64,000 nt of DNA from Verrucomicrobiota bacterium. GTDB taxonomy: Bacteria > Verrucomicrobiota > Verrucomicrobiia > Limisphaerales > PALSA-1396. Below, one piece after another: positions 4,675 to 42,272 of this stretch. The notes below the pieces were generated by a model. That model searched no databases. It saw only the letters and a program-made list of their open reading frames with translations, and was not told the origin of the DNA. Position 1 is the stretch's first letter; each line of letters begins with the position of its first letter. The stretch covers positions 62,001 to 126,000 of the forward strand of contig JACQFP010000063.1 in NCBI GenBank assembly GCA_016200005.1, given 5' to 3'. The translations under genes were made by a program, and so were the position numbers.

Positions 4675-7600
4675 ATGCCCGACCGCCCTCGCCAACGCGC
4701 GCTCCTCACCTGGCTGGTTTGCGCCAGTTGGGTGGCGTCATTGTCCGCGGCGGAGGTCGAGTCCGGCGCGCGCGCGGAGCAACCGTATCGCGTGAAACGC
4801 TGGACAACTGAGGATGGGCTGCCGCAGAACCGCATCTCCTGCCTCAAGCAAACTCGCGACGGTTATCTGTGGCTCGGCACCTGGTTCGGGCTGGCCCGGT
4901 TTGATGGCGTGCGCTTTACCGTGTTCGACAAATTCAACACTCCGGAACTGGTGAACGACGCTATTAACGCCGTGGCGGAAGACACCGACGGCACGCTCTG
5001 GATTGCCACGGCCGACGGCTTGGTGAGTTATCGGGAGCATCATTTCCGCCGGCTTACAACGGCGCATGGATTGCCTGACCGCAAAGTCTGGCGCCTGACG
5101 GCCCGTCACTCCGGCGGCGTCTGGCTGCAGGCCGGCGATTTGGTAACGCGCCTGGAGGGCGGCAAGTTCTCGCAAGTCTGGAACATGCCATTGCACCAAG
5201 ATACTTCAATCCAGGCGCTGCACGAGGGCGCGGACGGCTGGCTTCACATCGTCACAGGGCACACTTGGCTGACGTTGTCGCCCAATGCGGACGAGTTGCG
5301 AACGAATCAAGTCGAGAATTCATCAGGAAATGCCTGGCTGACGGGGTTGTCCGCGAAGCAGCCGGGCAGTCTTTGGGTGGGCACTCAGCAAGGTCTTCAG
5401 CGATGGGACCAATCTGTCTCAAAGACCATTGGAACAAGCCAACTCGGCCAACGGCCCGTGGACTTCATCTATGAAGACCGCTCCACCAATCTGTGGGTGG
5501 ATACGAAACCGGGAGGGCTGTTTCGCGAGGATCACGGGCGCTGGACGGCCGTTGAATTGGGGGAGAGCGCCGCGCCCGTGTCCACGACCTGCATGGAGGA
5601 GGATCGCGAGGGAAATTTCTGGTTGGGAACCGATCAAGGGCTGGTTCAACTTCAGCGGCGACGGGTGCGCACTTACACCACGCGCGACGGCCTGGTTGAC
5701 GACCATGTGTGGTCGGTCTGCGAGGGAACGGATGGGACAATTTGGGTGGGGGCCGATCGGGGGTTAAGTCGGATTCACGACCGTCGCGTACTTCCGCTGG
5801 ACGCAGGTGACATTTATCCCGATCACCCCGACCGTTGCGTCTGGCCTCCCAGCGATGGCGGCGTGCTGATTGCAAAGTCGCGCATCGGCGTTTTAGAATT
5901 TAAGGAGAGGCTTATTCAACGAGTCGCAGCGAGCGCTCTGCCAAGCCCAAATATCTTCGCGCTCTACGAGGACCGATCGGGCCTTCTCTGGATCGGCACC
6001 GGTAACGGCGTCGCCGCGTTAAAAGACGGCCAAGTCACGGCTTCCTACACGAATTGGGCCGGTCGCTCTGAATATGACGTGCGGTGCATCTTGCAAGACC
6101 GGGCGGGAACTTTCTGGTTCGGCACGCAGGGTCAAGGACTCACGCGCCTGCGCAACCGAAAGTTCGACGTCTTCACCGAGCGCGACGGTCTGAGCAACAA
6201 CCGCGTCTGGGCTATCCACGAGGATGCCGATGGCGCGCTTTGGCTGGGCACGGAGAACGGTTTGACCCGGTTTTTACCGCCCGTAGGAGACGACGTGAGG
6301 AGACTCACTTCGAAAAGCAGAAAGCGGAAAGCAGAAAGCAGACATGAACAGAGCCTCCATACGTCGGCTCCTTCAAAGGAACGTGGAGGTGTGGGTCGCT
6401 TCTTCACCTTCAGACGGAGCCAGGGGTTGTTGGAAAACGCCGTGAATTGGATTCTCGAAGACGACTTCGGTTATCTCTGGCTAAGCGGACTGCGTGGCAT
6501 TTACCGGGTGAAGTTGGAGCAGTTGAACGCTGTGGCGGAGGGCCGCGTACAATCCGTGCAAGTCGCCGCCTTCGGCACTGCCGACGGCATGGAGAGCAGC
6601 GAGACCAATGGCGAAGGCCAACCCGCCGGCTGGAAGGCGCGCGACGGACGGTTGTGGTTTCCCACCACGCGCGGCGTCGTCGTGATTGATCCAAAGACGG
6701 TCGAGGTTAACGAAGTCCCGCCGCCGGTCGTCATCGAGCAGGTGAAGGCCGATGATGAAATAATTTTCGGAGACGGTGTAGCAGCCGGCGTGAGGAGGCG
6801 GACGATGGGACAGAATGGGAATATCCGCCTCCTCACGTCGGCGGTTACGAAGCTTGCTCCCGGTCGAGCGCAAGTGGTCGAAATTTCTTACACAGCGAAC
6901 ACGTTTGTGGATCCCAAGCGCGCGAGATTTCGCTATCGCATGATCGGACGTGATTCCGGTTGGCGTGATGTGACTGTGGATCGGGTTGCTCACTACACCA
7001 ACCTCCGCCCGGGCAACTACTGCTTTGAAGTCGTTGCCGCCAACCATCACGGCGTTTGGAGCCCAACACCGGCGAGTTTCCCTTTTGCGCTCGCGCCGCA
7101 TTTTTATGAAACGTGGCCCTTCTACCTCCTGTGCGCTGCAGCCGTGATTGGCTTGGCGTTAGGTGTACAAGCCTATCGTTTAAGGTGGCAACGGCGGCTG
7201 TTGAAACTGGAAGAGCAGCGCGCCCTGGCCAACGAACGAACGCGCATCGCGCGCGACCTGCATGACGATCTGGGCACCGCGCTGACCGGTCTGGCGCTCG
7301 AACTTGATGTCATTGGCCGCGAAGCCAGAGAGGTGACACCGGTGGCTGAACACCTCGGTGAAACCGCCCAGCGGACGCGCGATCTGGCCGAACGCATGCG
7401 CGAGGTGGTCTGGACCGTCAACCCGCAGTGCGACACGCTTTCCAGCCTGGCCAGTTTTCTGGAACAGCAGATCAGCCAGTTTCTCGGCGCGACCAGCGTG
7501 CGCGTGCGGCTGGATTTTCCCGAAGACATTCCGGCGATGCCGCTGGCGGCGGACGCGCGCCACCAACTGGCGCTCAGTGTGCGCGAGGCTTTGACCAACG

Positions 7601-7857
7601 TCGTGCGGCACGCGCACGCAAGTGAAGTCGTCGTGAGCCTGGCCATCGTCAACGGGTCTTTGATCGTGCAAGTCAAGGACAACGGGCGGGGCTTCCAACC
7701 GGGCGGACAGGTGGGAAACGGTCTGGCGAATCTCCGCGCCCGCTTGGAGCAAATTGGTGGCAGCTTCGAATGCGTTTCGACACCGGGCGCAGGAACCACC
7801 GTCACTTTTCGCCTGCCACTCCGACACGCGGCTGCCGAAAATGGAGGAATCGGATGA
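4675..7857 (+). CDS. Two-component propeller sensor histidine kinase (Reg_prop / Y_Y_Y / NarL-type kinase)
   Basis: 1060 aa. The signal peptide (to about residue 26) is followed by a long periplasmic sensor made of Reg_prop repeats of the type GxLWIGTxxGL (about 40-650), a Y_Y_Y domain (about 690-800), one membrane segment (about 811-835), a HisKA_3 dimerisation domain with RDLHDDLG (phosphoacceptor His863), and a HATPase with N-box Asn975 and the DNGRGF motif (Asp1002). The cognate regulator follows at once. In Bacteroidota and Verrucomicrobia such sensors often detect oligosaccharides (known of the family); the ligand here is unknown. Two palindromic elements are inserted in frame: residues about 537-567, between propeller repeats, and about 702-725, near the Y_Y_Y domain. 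The start was chosen for the signal peptide. Confidence 0.9.
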   Translation: MPDRPRQRALLTWLVCASWVASLSAAEVESGARAEQPYRVKRWTTEDGLPQNRISCLKQTRDGYLWLGTWFGLARFDGVRFTVFDKFNTPELVNDAINAVAEDTDGTLWIATADGLVSYREHHFRRLTTAHGLPDRKVWRLTARHSGGVWLQAGDLVTRLEGGKFSQVWNMPLHQDTSIQALHEGADGWLHIVTGHTWLTLSPNADELRTNQVENSSGNAWLTGLSAKQPGSLWVGTQQGLQRWDQSVSKTIGTSQLGQRPVDFIYEDRSTNLWVDTKPGGLFREDHGRWTAVELGESAAPVSTTCMEEDREGNFWLGTDQGLVQLQRRRVRTYTTRDGLVDDHVWSVCEGTDGTIWVGADRGLSRIHDRRVLPLDAGDIYPDHPDRCVWPPSDGGVLIAKSRIGVLEFKERLIQRVAASALPSPNIFALYEDRSGLLWIGTGNGVAALKDGQVTASYTNWAGRSEYDVRCILQDRAGTFWFGTQGQGLTRLRNRKFDVFTERDGLSNNRVWAIHEDADGALWLGTENGLTRFLPPVGDDVRRLTSKSRKRKAESRHEQSLHTSAPSKERGGVGRFFTFRRSQGLLENAVNWILEDDFGYLWLSGLRGIYRVKLEQLNAVAEGRVQSVQVAAFGTADGMESSETNGEGQPAGWKARDGRLWFPTTRGVVVIDPKTVEVNEVPPPVVIEQVKADDEIIFGDGVAAGVRRRTMGQNGNIRLLTSAVTKLAPGRAQVVEISYTANTFVDPKRARFRYRMIGRDSGWRDVTVDRVAHYTNLRPGNYCFEVVAANHHGVWSPTPASFPFALAPHFYETWPFYLLCAAAVIGLALGVQAYRLRWQRRLLKLEEQRALANERTRIARDLHDDLGTALTGLALELDVIGREAREVTPVAEHLGETAQRTRDLAERMREVVWTVNPQCDTLSSLASFLEQQISQFLGATSVRVRLDFPEDIPAMPLAADARHQLALSVREALTNVVRHAHASEVVVSLAIVNGSLIVQVKDNGRGFQPGGQVGNGLANLRARLEQIGGSFECVSTPGAGTTVTFRLPLRHAAAENGGIG
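6283..6373. repeat. Family A palindromic element, copy 1 (in frame in the sensor kinase gene)
   Basis: The left arm (6283-6308) and right arm (6351-6373) are inverted repeats with about 18 of 23 positions paired. The centre is a purine-rich run of AGCAGAAAG-type units. Read in the host gene it encodes DDVRRLTSKS ... QSLHTSA. It matches the copies at 6778, 32755 and 40894. Confidence 0.8.
6778..6848. repeat. Family A palindromic element, copy 2 (in frame in the sensor kinase gene)
   Basis: The arms 6778-6802 and 6824-6848 pair at about 22 of 25 positions, with a 21-base centre. Read in the host gene it gives VAAGVRRRT ... IRLLTSAVT. It is the shortest of the four copies and lacks the GAAATCC or AGCAGAAAG filler. 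Confidence 0.8.
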
Positions 7858-22435: not shown

Positions 22436-22600
22436 GAAATCCGGAATCCGAAGCTCGAAATCCGAAACAAGCCCGAAATCCGAAACCATGACGGTGAATT
22501 CCAAAACCAACGGTTGCGGCATGCTGTCGGGTACCGGTCGTTTTGGTCATTGCCATTTTCCTCCATTCGGATTTGTTTCGGATTTCGGATTTCGAATTTG
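22436..22600. repeat. GAAATCCGAAATCC-type repeat cluster in the metF/sulfatase divergent region
   Basis: Copies of GAAATCCGAA (22436-22488) and their inverted counterparts TTCGGATTTCGGATTTCG (22566-22600) form an imperfect inverted repeat with a 77-base centre. The same filler is found inside family A copies at 32755 and 40894. The 398-base divergent region 22345-22741 holds this element and presumably both promoters. Confidence 0.6.
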
Positions 22601-24411: not shown

Positions 24412-26211
24412 TCACGGCGTGACGGTGCGGTAGAAGGCGGCGGCCGGACGCGGAGTTGTTTCGTGGTATTCGATGAGGCCGGAGGCGGGCGCGGTCTGCG
24501 TGTCGATGGTGTCCCACGGGCCGGTCACGCTGGACGCACGCTGCAATCGGTAGGTGAGTTCGGGGGCGCCGTTGAAGCGAACAAAGTAACCGCCGCTGCT
24601 GGCATCAGGCACGATGGTGAGTTGGGTGCCAAAGCCCAAGCCGGTGAAAACGTAGGCTGCCCCGGAGTCGGTGGCGCTGTTGTCGCTCTGGTTGCCGTTC
24701 ACGCCGGTGGCGTTACTGTCCTCCCCGATCGCCCCAACGACGACGGTGTCGCCCGACACGGCGACTGCAAAGCCGAAGGAGTCACCGGGGATGAAAACGT
24801 CTGAGCTACCGCCCGTGTTGGAGGCTTTGAGATAGGCCTGCTGGCTCCAGTTCGTCCCGTTGCGCACCAACACGTAGGCCGCGCCGGAGTTGGTGGCGCT
24901 GTTGTCCGTCTGGTTTCCGGTAATCCCGGTGGCGTTGCTGTCTTCGTAATACGCCCCGACCACCGTGGTGTCGCCCGATATCGCCACGGAGATGCCCAAC
25001 TGGTCACGCGCGTCCGTGTTGGATGCTTTGAGGTAGGCCTGCTGTACCCATGTCGTCCCGTTGCGGACAAAAACGTAAGCCGCCCCAGAGTCAGTGGCGC
25101 TGTTATCGTTCTGATTGCCGTTCACGCCGGTGGCGTTGCTAGCCTCGCCATACGCTCCGATCACCACCGTGTCACCCGACACCGCCACGGCGGAACCGAA
25201 CTGGTCATCCACGCCGGTATTGGAGGCTTTGAGATACGCTTGTTGGCTCCAATTCGTCCCGCTGCGGACGAAAACGTAGGCCGCGCCAGAGGCAGAAGCG
25301 CTGTTGTTGCTCTGGTTGCCGTTCACGCCGGTGGCGTTGCTAGCCTCGCCATACGCTCCGCTCACCACCGTGTCACCCGACACAGCAACCGACAAGCCGA
25401 AGTTGTCACCCGGCCCGGTGTTCGACGCTTTGAGATACGCTTGCTGGGTCCAGTTCGTCCCGCTGCGCACGAAGACATAGGCCGCACCAGAACTGAAGCC
25501 GCTGTTGTTGCTCTGGTCGCCGTTCACCCCGGTGGCGTAGCTGTTCTCGTTCCATGCCCCGACCACCACCGTGTCGCGCGACACCGCCACCGAATAACCG
25601 AAGCCGTCATTCGCGTCGGTGTTGGAAGCCTTGAGATAAGCCTGCTGGCTCCAATTCCCCGAACTGTCGCGCACGAAGACGTAGGTTGCACCGGAATGCG
25701 ATGCGCTGTTGTTGCTCTGGTTGCCGTTCACGCCGGTGGCGTTGCTAGCCTCGCCATACGCTCCGATCACCACCGTGTCGCCTGACACCGCCACTGAACG
25801 ACCGAAGGCGTCATTTGATCCGGTGTTGGAGGCTTTGAGATAGGCCTGTTGGATCCAATTCGTTCCGTTGCGCACAAAGACATAGGCGGCGCCCGATTCA
25901 GGAGCGTTGGTGTTGCTCTGGTCGCCGTTCACCCCGGTGGCGTTGCTGTTCTCATAGGGTGCCCCGACCACTATCGTGTCGCCCGATACCGCCACCGATT
26001 GGCCAAAGTTGTCACCAAAGTTAAGGGCGTCAGCCCCACCGGTGTTGGAGGCTTTGAGGTAGGCTTGCTGGGCGGGCGTGGGCGCGGCATACGCGCTCTG
26101 CAAACTCATGGCCGCCATCGCGAGTGCGGTGATGAGGCGACTGCTCAGAAGGTGGGAGCAGAAGTGAAGGAGCGGCGTGGTTTTCAAAGTGGTCTGTTTG
26201 TTTTCACGCAA
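24412..26211 (-). CDS. Exported seven-repeat FG-GAP/integrin-like propeller protein
   Basis: 599 aa. The signal peptide (to about residue 42, ending AYAAP) is followed by seven near-identical 67-73-residue repeats, each AYLKASNTG ... FGxSVAVSGDTVVVGAY ... SNATGVNGNQSNNSA ... SGAAYVFVR. The Asn/Asp-rich loops may bind calcium, as in FG-GAP propellers. The C-terminal domain (LTIVPDASSGGYFVRFNGAP ... FYRTVTP) is the tail domain common in verrucomicrobial secreted proteins. No enzymatic motif is present. A binding or surface role is inferred. High identity among repeats points to recent homogenisation. Confidence 0.85.
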   Translation of the reverse strand: MRENKQTTLKTTPLLHFCSHLLSSRLITALAMAAMSLQSAYAAPTPAQQAYLKASNTGGADALNFGDNFGQSVAVSGDTIVVGAPYENSNATGVNGDQSNTNAPESGAAYVFVRNGTNWIQQAYLKASNTGSNDAFGRSVAVSGDTVVIGAYGEASNATGVNGNQSNNSASHSGATYVFVRDSSGNWSQQAYLKASNTDANDGFGYSVAVSRDTVVVGAWNENSYATGVNGDQSNNSGFSSGAAYVFVRSGTNWTQQAYLKASNTGPGDNFGLSVAVSGDTVVSGAYGEASNATGVNGNQSNNSASASGAAYVFVRSGTNWSQQAYLKASNTGVDDQFGSAVAVSGDTVVIGAYGEASNATGVNGNQNDNSATDSGAAYVFVRNGTTWVQQAYLKASNTDARDQLGISVAISGDTTVVGAYYEDSNATGITGNQTDNSATNSGAAYVLVRNGTNWSQQAYLKASNTGGSSDVFIPGDSFGFAVAVSGDTVVVGAIGEDSNATGVNGNQSDNSATDSGAAYVFTGLGFGTQLTIVPDASSGGYFVRFNGAPELTYRLQRASSVTGPWDTIDTQTAPASGLIEYHETTPRPAAAFYRTVTP

Positions 26212-32754: not shown

Positions 32755-32848
32755 GTAGCAGCCGACGTAAGGAGGCTCTGAATTAAAATTCCGAAATCTG
32801 AAACCCGAGATCCAAAATTGATCAGAGCCTCCCGACGTCGGCTGCTAC
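32755..32848. repeat. Family A palindromic element, copy 3 (intergenic)
   Basis: The arms 32755-32780 and 32823-32848 pair at 24 of 26 positions (GTAGCAGCCGACGT onwards). The centre is a degenerate GAAATCTGAAACCC run. It is the best-preserved palindrome of the four and the only one outside a gene. Confidence 0.85.
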
Positions 32849-36214: not shown

Positions 36215-36381
36215 GTGCTGGTCGTGCGTGGCATTTCATTCAATTAACGCTCCGCTGTCAAAAAGTAATGTTGCTTGTGAAGAGAATCGATTTGGTTTAC
36301 AAACGCCGCCACAGCCAATGCACAGCTTAACCAGACTACGAAATATTCTTGGCAGGCGCACAGCCCCCAAGTGTAACAGCG

Positions 36382-36444
36382 CCCCCTCACCCTGCCCTCT
36401 CCCCCTCGGAGTGGGAGAGGGTGGCCAAAGGTCGGGTCAAGGGG
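36382..36444. repeat. CCCCTCACCCTGCCCTCTCC-type palindrome, copy 1
   Basis: An imperfect hairpin (CCCTCTCCC / GGGAGAGGG core) that matches 37447-37508. The two copies flank the PQQ-like propeller gene in the same orientation. If translated with the downstream gene it would give a Pro/Gly-rich insert, but it lies before the likely start. Confidence 0.8.
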
Positions 36445-36512
36445 AATCCGAAACGCGTGAGAACCATCTACGGTCGGTCCAAGTTCCTCGTTCGTGTCTG
36501 AACAGTTTAAAT

Positions 36513-37394: not shown

Positions 37395-37446
37395 GACAAA
37401 CTTCAGATGATCTTCCGCGCAATCACAACCTCGAATTTTAGCATCG

Positions 37447-37508
37447 CCCCCTCACCCTGCCCTCTCCCCCTCGGAGGGGGAGAGGGTGGCCGGAGGCCGG
37501 GTGAGGGG
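37447..37508. repeat. CCCCTCACCCTGCCCTCTCC-type palindrome, copy 2
   Basis: A near-perfect hairpin: CCCTCACC ... CCCTCTCCCCCTC pairs with GAGGGGGAGAGGG ... GGTGAGGG. It shares its sequence with 36382-36444. It sits after the PQQ-like gene and may act as its terminator. Confidence 0.85.
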
Positions 37509-37589
37509 ATATCCGGATACTTCGAATACTACTCGCAGTAGGTATGAATTGGTTGAACGGATCGTCACTTGCCGCACGCTAAAACTCTC

Positions 37590-39329: not shown

Positions 39330-42272
39330 CTACCCAGTCTCGATCTGCTTTACAGCCTCGACGCAGCGACCGCAAATCGTCGGATGCTCCGGGTGCTTGC
39401 CAACATCCGTTTCCCAATGCCAGCAGCGCTCGCATTTCTGGCCGCGTGCGTGAAACACAAGAACAGTCGGAGCGTCATTTCGTCCTTCGACAGGAGGGCA
39501 GTCTCTGGAGACAAGCTTGAGTTCGGAAACATTTAGCATTTCTTTCATACTCGCGGCATGTGGTATCAGAGCCTCGATGACAGTCGGTGAACCTTCAAGT
39601 TCAACCTCTGCCTCTAGCGACTTTCCAATGGCTTTTCCTTGTCGGGCACCCTCCAAACCATCAAGGGTATGTTCACGCAGTTTGAACAATTTCTCCCAGA
39701 GCTCCCGTTCTGTTTCGGGCCGTTCAAACTGATTCGGGTGCCATGTCTGTTGGTGGATGGATGGAACAGCTTTACTAGGCACGAAGTCCCAAGCCTCATC
39801 CGCCGTAAACGCCAGAATCGGCGCGAGCATCTGGCACAGGCCCGTTACAAGCCGATGCAGCGCGCTCTGAGTCGAGCGGCGGCGGTGCGAATCGGCCGCG
39901 TCGGTGTAGAGCCGGTCTTTGATGACGTCGTGGTAAATCGAGGAAAGTTCGACCGCAATGAACTGACTGATCTTCTGATAAACGACGTGGAATTCGTATT
40001 TGTCGTAAGCCGCAATGACTTCGCTCTCAAGCTTCGAGAACTCGCTGAGAACCCAGCGGTCGAGACCAGTCAACTTGTCGTCGGCCACGGTGTGCTTCGC
40101 GGGATCGAAGTCGTAGAGGTTGGAGATCTGGTAGCGCAGCGCATTACGGATGCCGCGATAGGTCTCGGCCACCTTGTTGATGCGTTCCTCGCTGACGGTG
40201 ATGTCGTTGCGGAAATCCTGCGAGGCGACCCAAAGGCGCACGATGTCAGCGCCGTACTTCTTCACGTAAGCTTCGGCGGTCTGCGGTTTTTCATAGACGC
40301 CATGCGCCTGTCTGCTCTTGGAAATCTTTTCGCGGTCGGCATCGACCATGAAGCCGTGGGTGAGCACGGTCTTGTAAGGCGCGGCACCGTTGCCAGCCAG
40401 CGAGAGCAGCAGCGATGATTGAAACCAGCCGCGATGCTGGTCCGAACCTTCGAGATACATGTCGGCCTGCCAGGAATTGGTTGAGGGTTGAGAGTTGAGA
40501 GTTGAGTGATTCAATTCCGGGCGACGCATCAAGACTGCGCGCGACGACGAACCCGAATCAATCCACACGTCCAGCGTGTCGTTGGATTTGGTGACGGCTT
40601 CCGCTCCTTTCCAGTCTTTCGGTTTCACGAGCGACCAGAGTTCGCTCACGGATTTCTCGAACCAAACGTTGGAGCCATGTTTCTCGATGAGGTCGGCGGC
40701 GTTTCTGACAATCTGCGCGTCAAGGATGGGTTCGCCTTTCGCGTCATAGAATGCCGGGATCGGCACGCCCCAACTGCGTTGACGCGAGATGCACCAATCG
40801 GGACGCGATTGCACGGCGCTTTTGATGCGATTCACGCCCCAATCAGGAATCCATTGGACGCGGTCAATCTCGGCAAGAGCCTCTTGACGGAACGTAGCAG
40901 CCGAGGTGACGAGGCTCTGATCAATTTCGGATTTCGGATTTCGGATTTCGGATTTTGAAGTGAGCCTCCTTACGTCGGCTGCTACATGGTCAATTCGCAC
41001 GAACCACTGGTCCATCGCCCGGAAGATGATCGGCGTCTTGCTGCGCCAGCAGTGCGGGTAGCTGTGATGATAATTTTCCTGGTGCAACAGGACATTGCGG
41101 ACGCGCAGTTCGTGCAGCACGGCGCGGTTGGCGTCGCTCTCGCCGTGCTTTTCGAGAATGGCTTTGCCGATCATCTCGGCGGGCATCTGTTGTTCAACCG
41201 GCAATTCGTTCGTGTAAGCGAAGCAACCATCGTCATCAACGGGCGAATAAATCGGCAGGCCATTTTGACGACCGAGATTGTAATCGTCCAGGCCGTGACC
41301 AGGCGCGATATGGACGAAACCGGTGCCGGTGCTGTTATCGACAAACGAGTCGCCAGCGAACAGTTTTCCCGTGCGATTGCAAAAGGGATGGTGATATTCG
41401 ATCTGCTTGAGTTGATCGCCGGTCAGGCTGCGGATGATTTCGTAACCGCCCCAGCCGCACTTCTCGGCAACGGTGGACAACAACATTGTCGAGACAATGT
41501 AAGTTTGATCGCCGGCGCGGATGTGCGAGTAGCTGAAGGTGGAATTGTAAGCGACGGCGAGATTGGCGGGCAACGTCCACGGTGTTGTCGTCCAGATGAC
41601 GATGGAAGTGTTCGCCTCGCCGACGACCGGGAACTTGACGAAGATGCTCTGGCTGACGTGGTCCTGGTATTCCACTTCGGCCTCGGCGAGCGCGGTGCGG
41701 CAGGGGATGCTCCAATACACCGGTTTCTTGCCGCGATAAACAAATCCTTGCTCGACGATGTCGGCGAACAAACGAAGTTCGTCGGCCTCGTACTCCTTGT
41801 TCAGCGTCAGGTAGGGATTGTCCCAATCGCCGAGCACGCCGAGGCGCTTAAACTGCGTGCGTTGAAAGTCGATGTATTTGCGGGCATAAGCGTCGCAGGC
41901 TTTGCGGATCGTCGCCGCGTCGGCACTGGTGTCGCCAGCCTTCCGCATTTCTTGAGAAACTTTAAATTCAATCGGCAGGCCGTGACAATCCCAGCCCGGA
42001 ACGTAGGGCGCGCTGAAACCACGGAGTGTCTTGTATTTGACGATGATGTCCTTGAGGATTTTGTTCAGCGCCGTGCCGATGTGCACATCGCCATTGGCGA
42101 AAGGTGGGCCGTCGTGGAGAACAAATTTCTCCGCACCGGCGCGCGCAGCCTGGATTTTGTCGTAAAGTTTTTCGCTCTCCCATTTCTTCAAGCGTTCCGG
42201 TTCGCGCGCGACCAGATCGGCTTTCATGGGAAAGTCGGTGCGCGGCAGATTCAATGTGCTCTTGTAGTCCAT
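39330..42272 (-). CDS. ileS: Isoleucyl-tRNA synthetase with two repeat-derived insertions
   Basis: 980 aa. Class I synthetase with HIGT at 64-67, DGPPFANGDV before it, WDCHGLPIE, the CP1 editing domain, MYLEGSDQHRGWFQSSLL, the KMSKS-type loop as KISKS (649-653) and a C-terminal zinc finger CERCW ... CGRC. It charges tRNA-Ile and is essential in known bacteria. Two in-frame insertions are not in the family pattern: residues about 430-459 come from the family A palindrome (VAADVRRLTSKS ... QSLVTSAAT), and about 587-598 come from the family B micro-repeat (STLNSQPST). Start ATG 42272 chosen for MDYKSTLNLPRTDFPMK; the upstream in-frame extension has no family match. Confidence 0.93.
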   Translation of the reverse strand: MDYKSTLNLPRTDFPMKADLVAREPERLKKWESEKLYDKIQAARAGAEKFVLHDGPPFANGDVHIGTALNKILKDIIVKYKTLRGFSAPYVPGWDCHGLPIEFKVSQEMRKAGDTSADAATIRKACDAYARKYIDFQRTQFKRLGVLGDWDNPYLTLNKEYEADELRLFADIVEQGFVYRGKKPVYWSIPCRTALAEAEVEYQDHVSQSIFVKFPVVGEANTSIVIWTTTPWTLPANLAVAYNSTFSYSHIRAGDQTYIVSTMLLSTVAEKCGWGGYEIIRSLTGDQLKQIEYHHPFCNRTGKLFAGDSFVDNSTGTGFVHIAPGHGLDDYNLGRQNGLPIYSPVDDDGCFAYTNELPVEQQMPAEMIGKAILEKHGESDANRAVLHELRVRNVLLHQENYHHSYPHCWRSKTPIIFRAMDQWFVRIDHVAADVRRLTSKSEIRNPKSEIDQSLVTSAATFRQEALAEIDRVQWIPDWGVNRIKSAVQSRPDWCISRQRSWGVPIPAFYDAKGEPILDAQIVRNAADLIEKHGSNVWFEKSVSELWSLVKPKDWKGAEAVTKSNDTLDVWIDSGSSSRAVLMRRPELNHSTLNSQPSTNSWQADMYLEGSDQHRGWFQSSLLLSLAGNGAAPYKTVLTHGFMVDADREKISKSRQAHGVYEKPQTAEAYVKKYGADIVRLWVASQDFRNDITVSEERINKVAETYRGIRNALRYQISNLYDFDPAKHTVADDKLTGLDRWVLSEFSKLESEVIAAYDKYEFHVVYQKISQFIAVELSSIYHDVIKDRLYTDAADSHRRRSTQSALHRLVTGLCQMLAPILAFTADEAWDFVPSKAVPSIHQQTWHPNQFERPETERELWEKLFKLREHTLDGLEGARQGKAIGKSLEAEVELEGSPTVIEALIPHAASMKEMLNVSELKLVSRDCPPVEGRNDAPTVLVFHARGQKCERCWHWETDVGKHPEHPTICGRCVEAVKQIETG
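40479..40512. repeat. Family B micro-repeat inside ileS
   Basis: GGTTGAGGGTTGAGAGTTGA-type units lie in frame in ileS (minus strand), coding STLNSQPST between RPEL and WQADMYLEGSDQHRGW. Normal family members pass straight between these two blocks. Confidence 0.75.
40894..40985. repeat. Family A palindromic element, copy 4 (in frame in ileS)
   Basis: The arms 40894-40917 and 40962-40985 pair at about 21 of 24 positions. The centre is four GAAATCC-type units. In ileS (minus strand) it is read without stops as VAADVRRLTSKSEIRN ... SLVTSAAT. Confidence 0.85.

Follow-up and report, generated by a model that had tools for sequence, protein, structure and literature searches.

The window, a 64,000-nucleotide stretch of the draft genome of an uncultured Verrucomicrobiota bacterium of the order Limisphaerales (Verrucomicrobia subdivision 3), carries the gene of a propeller-type sensor histidine kinase and, on the opposite strand, the isoleucyl-tRNA synthetase gene ileS. 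Four copies of a palindromic element lie in the window, two within the kinase gene, one between genes, and one within ileS (Table 1). The first-pass annotation had described inverted arms around a purine-rich centre at 6283 with matches at 6778, 32755, and 40894. The arms, the centre, and all three matches are real.

Table 1 Features of the window related to the palindromic element
Feature	Position	Strand	Description
Sensor histidine kinase	4675..7857	+	Propeller type; Reg_prop/Y_Y_Y/HisKA_3/HATPase_c; 1060 aa
REPIN copy 1	6283..6374	+	92 nt; head-to-head REP dimer; keeps the kinase frame, read as VGDDVRRLTSKSRKRKAESRHEQSLHTSAP
REP arm, left, of copy 1	6283..6306	+	GTAGGAGACGACGTGAGGAGACTC: GTAG tag, stem, GA/GA mismatch, GTGA loop
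Spacer of copy 1	6314..6342	+	Heptamer array (AAAGCAG)n, purine-rich
Inverted REP arm, right, of copy 1	6351..6374	-	
REPIN copy 2	6778..6848	+	71 nt; keeps the frame of the kinase that also hosts copy 1 (VAAGVRRR..RLLTSAVT)
REPIN copy 3	32755..32848	+	94 nt; intergenic
Isoleucyl-tRNA synthetase (ileS), host of copy 4	39330..42272	-	tRNA-synt_1, Anticodon_1, zf-FPG_IleRS
REPIN copy 4	40894..40985	+	92 nt; within ileS and in its minus-strand reading frame, VAADVRRLTSKSEIRNPKSEIDQSLVTSAA
Spacer of copy 4	40924..40955		(ATTTCGG)n array

GTAG opens the left arm in all four copies; in copies 3 and 4 it also ends the right arm, in the form CTAC. The right end is mutated to TTAC in copy 2 and has decayed to CTTC, where CTAC is expected, in copy 1. 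In each arm, the GTAG tag is followed by a stem of five pairs and a tandem GA/GA mismatch, after which a single closing pair leads into a GTRA loop; one arm subfamily has paired GA/TC in place of the mismatch. As single-stranded DNA, all four copies fold better than their dinucleotide shuffles (z = -3.2, -6.3, -9.1, and -6.5 for copies 1 to 4, respectively). Isolated arms fold as DNA with -2 to -8 kcal/mol, some subtypes weakly. In addition, paired positions of the arms covary. The closing pair 12-17 occurs as C-G (191 arms) or G-C (74 arms; association p = 5e-27), and pair 6-23 as C-G (149 arms) or A-T (125 arms; p = 1.6e-28), both associations being computed on 163 distinct arms. These p values are inflated by the relatedness of the arms; the changes nonetheless recur in several combinations across subfamilies.

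As the first-pass annotation had proposed, we searched the arm pattern against the whole 6.54 Mb genome, which gives 231 matches with at most three mismatches and a single match for the reversed pattern. A position weight matrix scan of a 1.05 Mb sample (100 stretches picked around arm matches, and the window) finds 295 arms in 181 elements; 114 of these elements are head-to-head dimers, and the other 67 are single arms. Dimer partners are mostly of the same outer subtype, and dimer size is mostly 58-97 nt. A simple gene caller based on codon usage, whose calls are crude, places 107 of the 181 elements between genes, 57 within called genes, and 17 across gene ends. About 82% of the sampled DNA is called coding, indicating that the elements still avoid genes, although far less so than in Pseudomonas fluorescens, where 14 of 1,067 REP 16-mers of strain SBW25 overlap genes (PMC3116915). 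The extragenic preference of GTAG REPs and REPINs is therefore present here, but the intragenic share of about one-third is far above that of SBW25; such a share is atypical for REPs and counts against reading the element as a REPIN.

Arms are present in 38 of the 58 genomes searched. When the exact dimer pattern is searched in one genome per species, nearly all of the matches listed are labelled Verrucomicrobia subdivision 3 or Limisphaerales, consistent with the proposal of the first-pass annotation that this lineage has its own family of palindromes within proteins. The exceptions among the matches listed are five loci whose label is just bacterium or Proteobacteria.

Arms of the family also surround genes of RAYT transposases. 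The Pfam profile Y1_Tnp (PF01797) identifies four genes in the genome of the window, none of them near arms, and none of the 34 PF01797 loci in this genome and ten relatives has an arm within about 1.5 kb. The absence of a RAYT, first suggested by this search, was overturned when the NCBIfam model REP_Tyr_transpos found the right genes. One RAYT of the window's genome (G000:C34:9603-10295) lies amid 19 clustered arms, and a second (C34:37767-38309) is flanked by TC-type arms. A query with the orthologue from G038 finds this RAYT lineage in 8 of 56 genomes (one of them as a fragment), besides one weak match. Arms of the family flank both sides of 9 of the 10 full-length RAYT loci in the window's genome and its relatives, the doubly flanked loci of the relatives being in G038 (two), G054, G045, G022, G011, and G050. 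The flanking subtype is CCG in G000, G038, and G054, CAG in G045 and G038, GAGA in G022 and G011, and TC in G000 and G050. At the tenth locus (G011 C141), the flanking hairpins have the form GTAG-stem-GTRA and a different stem sequence. Wherever the RAYT lineage occurs, a genome has at least 11 arms, and the median elsewhere is 2 (Mann-Whitney p = 0.0002). In the window's own assembly, no RAYT was found whose flanking arms are of precisely the window-copy subtypes (GTAGCAG.. and GTAGGAG..); such subtypes flank RAYTs in relatives. No RAYT of the lineage was found in the arm-rich genomes G001, G009, and G037, which are draft assemblies, where repeat-rich loci assemble badly.

Two further observations concern these transposase genes. 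The RAYT gene at G000:C34:9603-10295 (L416) is itself host to a REPIN, which keeps the frame and lies near the C-terminal end of the protein. Y1 genes at L106 (G009:C46) and L134 (G038:C192) have other GTAG hairpins on both sides (GTAGCCGTGGGCCTAGGCCCACGG; GTAGCCGGAGGT..), which are further REP families of the order, different from the window family.

Because of the GTAG tag, the self-folding arms, and the RAYT neighbours, we place the element in the REP/REPIN class. It is very probably a REPIN, that is, a miniature, non-autonomous mobile element that belongs to a REP family of Limisphaerales with a cognate RAYT (TnpA-REP, HUH Y1). Like the known GTAG REP, BIME, and REPIN systems with RAYTs (PMC3733652, PMC3116915, PMC8266576), the family has a 5' GTAG, forms head-to-head dimers, is present in tens to hundreds of copies, and has a conserved stem mismatch in the hairpin (as in E. 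coli REPs) and RAYT genes flanked by the same hairpins. It differs from them in the GTRA loop with the tandem GA mismatch, in its occurrence in Limisphaerales, in the share of roughly one-third of its elements within called genes, and in the heptamer-array spacers of some copies.

The kinase reading frame is stop-free across copies 1 and 2, as the first-pass annotation had stated for its reading through the element, and the Reg_prop, Y_Y_Y, HisKA_3, and HATPase_c domains are all kept. In the alignment with homologues that the annotation had suggested, most homologues match residues 10-533 and 574-1050 of the kinase and skip residues 534-573. The insert of about 38-40 residues is slightly longer than the 92-nt element. 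A kinase from another genus (G047, L145) also carries a REP arm at the second site, with the same insertion point and phase. An AlphaFold2 model of the kinase has a mean pLDDT of 81, and within residues 34-1052 the pLDDT falls below 50 only at residues 541-571 and 711-721, which are the two inserts; these low values are partly due to gap columns in the alignment. Residues 541-571 are placed between strands 529-534 and 575-579. Copy 1 is thus in a predicted loop between propeller strands; copy 2 is in the linker before the Y_Y_Y core.

At the place of copy 1, the kinase of G016 has a different low-complexity stretch, also of about 40 residues; that this stretch is REP DNA was ruled out from its residues. 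The G016 kinase is what one would expect if the residues at this place were an ordinary variable loop whose similarity to the repeat arises from coincidence or codon bias. However, the DNA in question is an inverted repeat that matches hundreds of genome copies, both kinase inserts and the ileS insert show REP DNA, and no homologue has the same residues without it. The DNA evidence refutes the variable loop, to which we give practically no chance.

The reading frame of intragenic copies was assessed with dimers that have open, coding-like sequence for 150 nt on each side on the same strand, which avoids ORF ascertainment. In the window's own genome, all 25 such dimers are in frame and open. 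In the other named genomes (80 loci), 18 of 21 are in frame, one has a stop, and two are out of frame. The pooled in-frame excess has p = 1e-17 against a null of one-third. The frame bias anticipated by the first-pass annotation is strong, but its claim that the elements keep one stop-free frame does not hold. Among intragenic dimers, the left arm is read as GTA GCA.. (VAADVRRL) in 16 and as xGT AGC.. (SSRREEA) in 13, and the only phase excluded is the third, in which TAG appears. For the right arm, the reading ..LLTSAAT occurs in 20 of 29 dimers, compared with about 15 expected from open frames (p ~ 0.01), a mild bias. An intragenic REPIN would add about 25-30 residues to the protein, mostly hydrophilic, in loops that seem to tolerate them. 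Clean insertion, with one constant length and a fixed target duplication, is not supported: intragenic dimer lengths are 1, 2, or 0 mod 3, and the net insert lengths fit no single constant target change. No insertion was caught in the act.

These results bear on the analogy with Rickettsia palindromic elements drawn by the first-pass annotation. The analogy stands for behaviour. The Rickettsia elements likewise lie in frame in many unrelated genes and form solvent-exposed segments, and orthologues can have different elements at one place (PMC3767692, PMC3733652). An independent palindrome family of this kind, adapted to translation in one frame, could also explain the in-frame copies in many unrelated proteins, the inserts in predicted loops, the homologues without the residues, and the mild bias of the right-arm phase. 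The analogy fails for identity. By description, the Rickettsia elements are 100-150 bp long and belong to Alphaproteobacteria, and the intragenic RPE-4/6 are members of the CGTC group without a dedicated transposase (PMC3733652). The CGTC tag of the RPE-4/6 type was not found here; the tag of the window family is GTAG, which together with the self-folding arms and the RAYT linkage points to REP/REPIN. In addition, the two left phases are about equally used, and most copies are still intergenic. An independent family of the Rickettsia kind is therefore very unlikely. Wolbachia palindromic elements (PMC3767692), also compared by description, are palindromic and lie in part within genes, but belong to the CGTC-4 group and to another phylum.

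The REPIN in ileS lies in an essential gene, and no second full-length IleRS was found in the genome. The ileS products of relatives align as residues 1-430 and 459-980, or hold something else at that point; the solved IleRS structure (PDB 8c9e) likewise skips residues 428-457. The point is empty in G024 (IDH-DK-FRE), G042, G022, and G009 and is filled by a window-family REPIN in G000 and G001. It holds GTAGGACAGGCGTCGCGCCTGTCC-type dimers (VGQASRLS..) in G010 and G051, and the GTAGGGACGCGGTGCTCCGCGTCCC type (VGTRCSAS..) in G003, with a remnant in G007. The inserts of G000, G010, G051, and G003 are inverted repeats, with 20-23 of 24 end positions complementary. Three unrelated GTAG families with different stems therefore occupy one ileS point across different genera.

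By Pfam, other hosts are intact: MutS, RF3 (prfC), ArgJ, and UvrA, which like IleRS are housekeeping proteins, as well as a CofH-like radical SAM enzyme, a DUF1015 protein, an aminotransferase, a number of protein kinases, and an FG-GAP protein in which three copies lie. An A2M protein is a further host. The uvrA gene (L175) has three in-frame REPINs, at residues 146-172, 683-706, and 1010-1040, the third between the ABC signature and Walker B. RF3 is hit at the same point in G000 and G027. The ArgJ loop holds REPINs in G000 and G001 and different, heptamer-like in-frame arrays in six other genera (loci L242-L248).

Recurrence at the same point in ileS, in RF3 (G000 and G027), and at the second kinase site (G000 and G047) would be expected if the transposase had a target in these genes, that is, if insertion were site-specific. 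We consider this targeting unlikely, because the families at the ileS point have different stems and the ArgJ loop of six relatives holds unrelated heptamer arrays. For the same reasons, the shared sites suggest permissive loops, and are best read as loop tolerance plus selection. Alternatively, the inserts could be functional, either because REPINs in mutS and uvrA alter the mutation rate or because hairpins in the mRNA regulate expression. In accordance with such a function, uvrA has three copies and mutS one in this genome, and each uvrA gene of Opitutus terrae has two insertions (PMC3733652). However, hosts of every kind are hit, including kinases, FG-GAP and A2M proteins, the aminotransferase, and argJ, and a functional role appears highly improbable.

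The sampled DNA contains other repeats as well. Exact tandem runs of at least 18 nt number 83 for period 7 and 9 for all other periods from 2 to 12 together (1.05 Mb sample). The main heptamer units are AAATCCG, AACTCTC, and AACCCTC, and 45 arrays lie within called genes; arrays of the window are at 889-914, 22576-22594, and 40487-40506. These period-7 arrays are reminiscent of cyanobacterial heptanucleotide repeats. Another palindrome, CCCTCTCCCCCTCGGAGTGGGAGAGGG, is at 36359-36450 and 37424-37515 of the window, and similar sequence seems to be translated in frame as LTPSLSPSDGERVAKPGEG in MutS (L104) and as LSPSDGERDGVRG in UvrA (L175). Long in-phase repeats are found in large ORFs at 24590-26071 and 1903-2597 of the window (201-nt and 51-nt units). 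A broader proposal is that, across the order, new peptide segments of conserved proteins have several REPIN families and the heptamer arrays as a main source, and that the elements themselves are adapted to translation, their arms and spacers being poor in stops and one phase being preferred. We regard it as speculative and rather improbable.

We propose the following course for the REPIN, drawing on the REP-RAYT literature and the linkage described above. The RAYT would bind the single-stranded GTAG hairpin and would copy or move the dimer to new places, possibly to the present day. Most copies would stay between genes. Insertions into genes would survive only where the frame remains open and a loop tolerates about 25-30 extra, mostly hydrophilic residues, which would presumably be translated as part of the protein and be neutral. 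Kinase copies 1 and 2 would be two such survivors.

REPINs and RAYTs are already known, as are GTAG REPs within genes of Verrucomicrobia (PMC3733652). In Opitutus terrae, intragenic GTAG REPs have been reported, with both uvrA genes doubly hit (PMC3733652). The elements described here resemble those of O. terrae, a member of the same phylum, in that REPs and dimers lie in genes, add 20-30 residues, and hit uvrA more than once. They occur in another lineage of the phylum, and the comparison with the O. terrae families GTAG-17 to -20 covers their description. Several families at one site are seen in the ileS of Limisphaerales and are not described for O. terrae in the text consulted (PMC3733652). 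A literature search returned no report of such elements for Limisphaerales. New are the family found in Limisphaerales, the RAYT lineage that goes with it, the strong in-frame bias, the essential host gene, and the three unrelated families at one point of ileS.

The frequency with which REPINs enter proteins in this lineage is striking, as is the presence of several unrelated families at the same spot. An IleRS loop that is empty in some genera and REPIN-filled in others is a natural experiment on mobile DNA becoming protein, and there are many matched proteins with and without an insert. The RAYT lineage and its cognate arms provide material for biochemistry outside Proteobacteria. Annotators should be aware that SSRREEA, VAADVRRL, and LLTSAA stretches in these proteins derive from the repeat. 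Finally, the shared sites bear on a question that is open for Rickettsia, namely whether elements at one place reflect an insertion hot spot or a common origin (PMC3767692).
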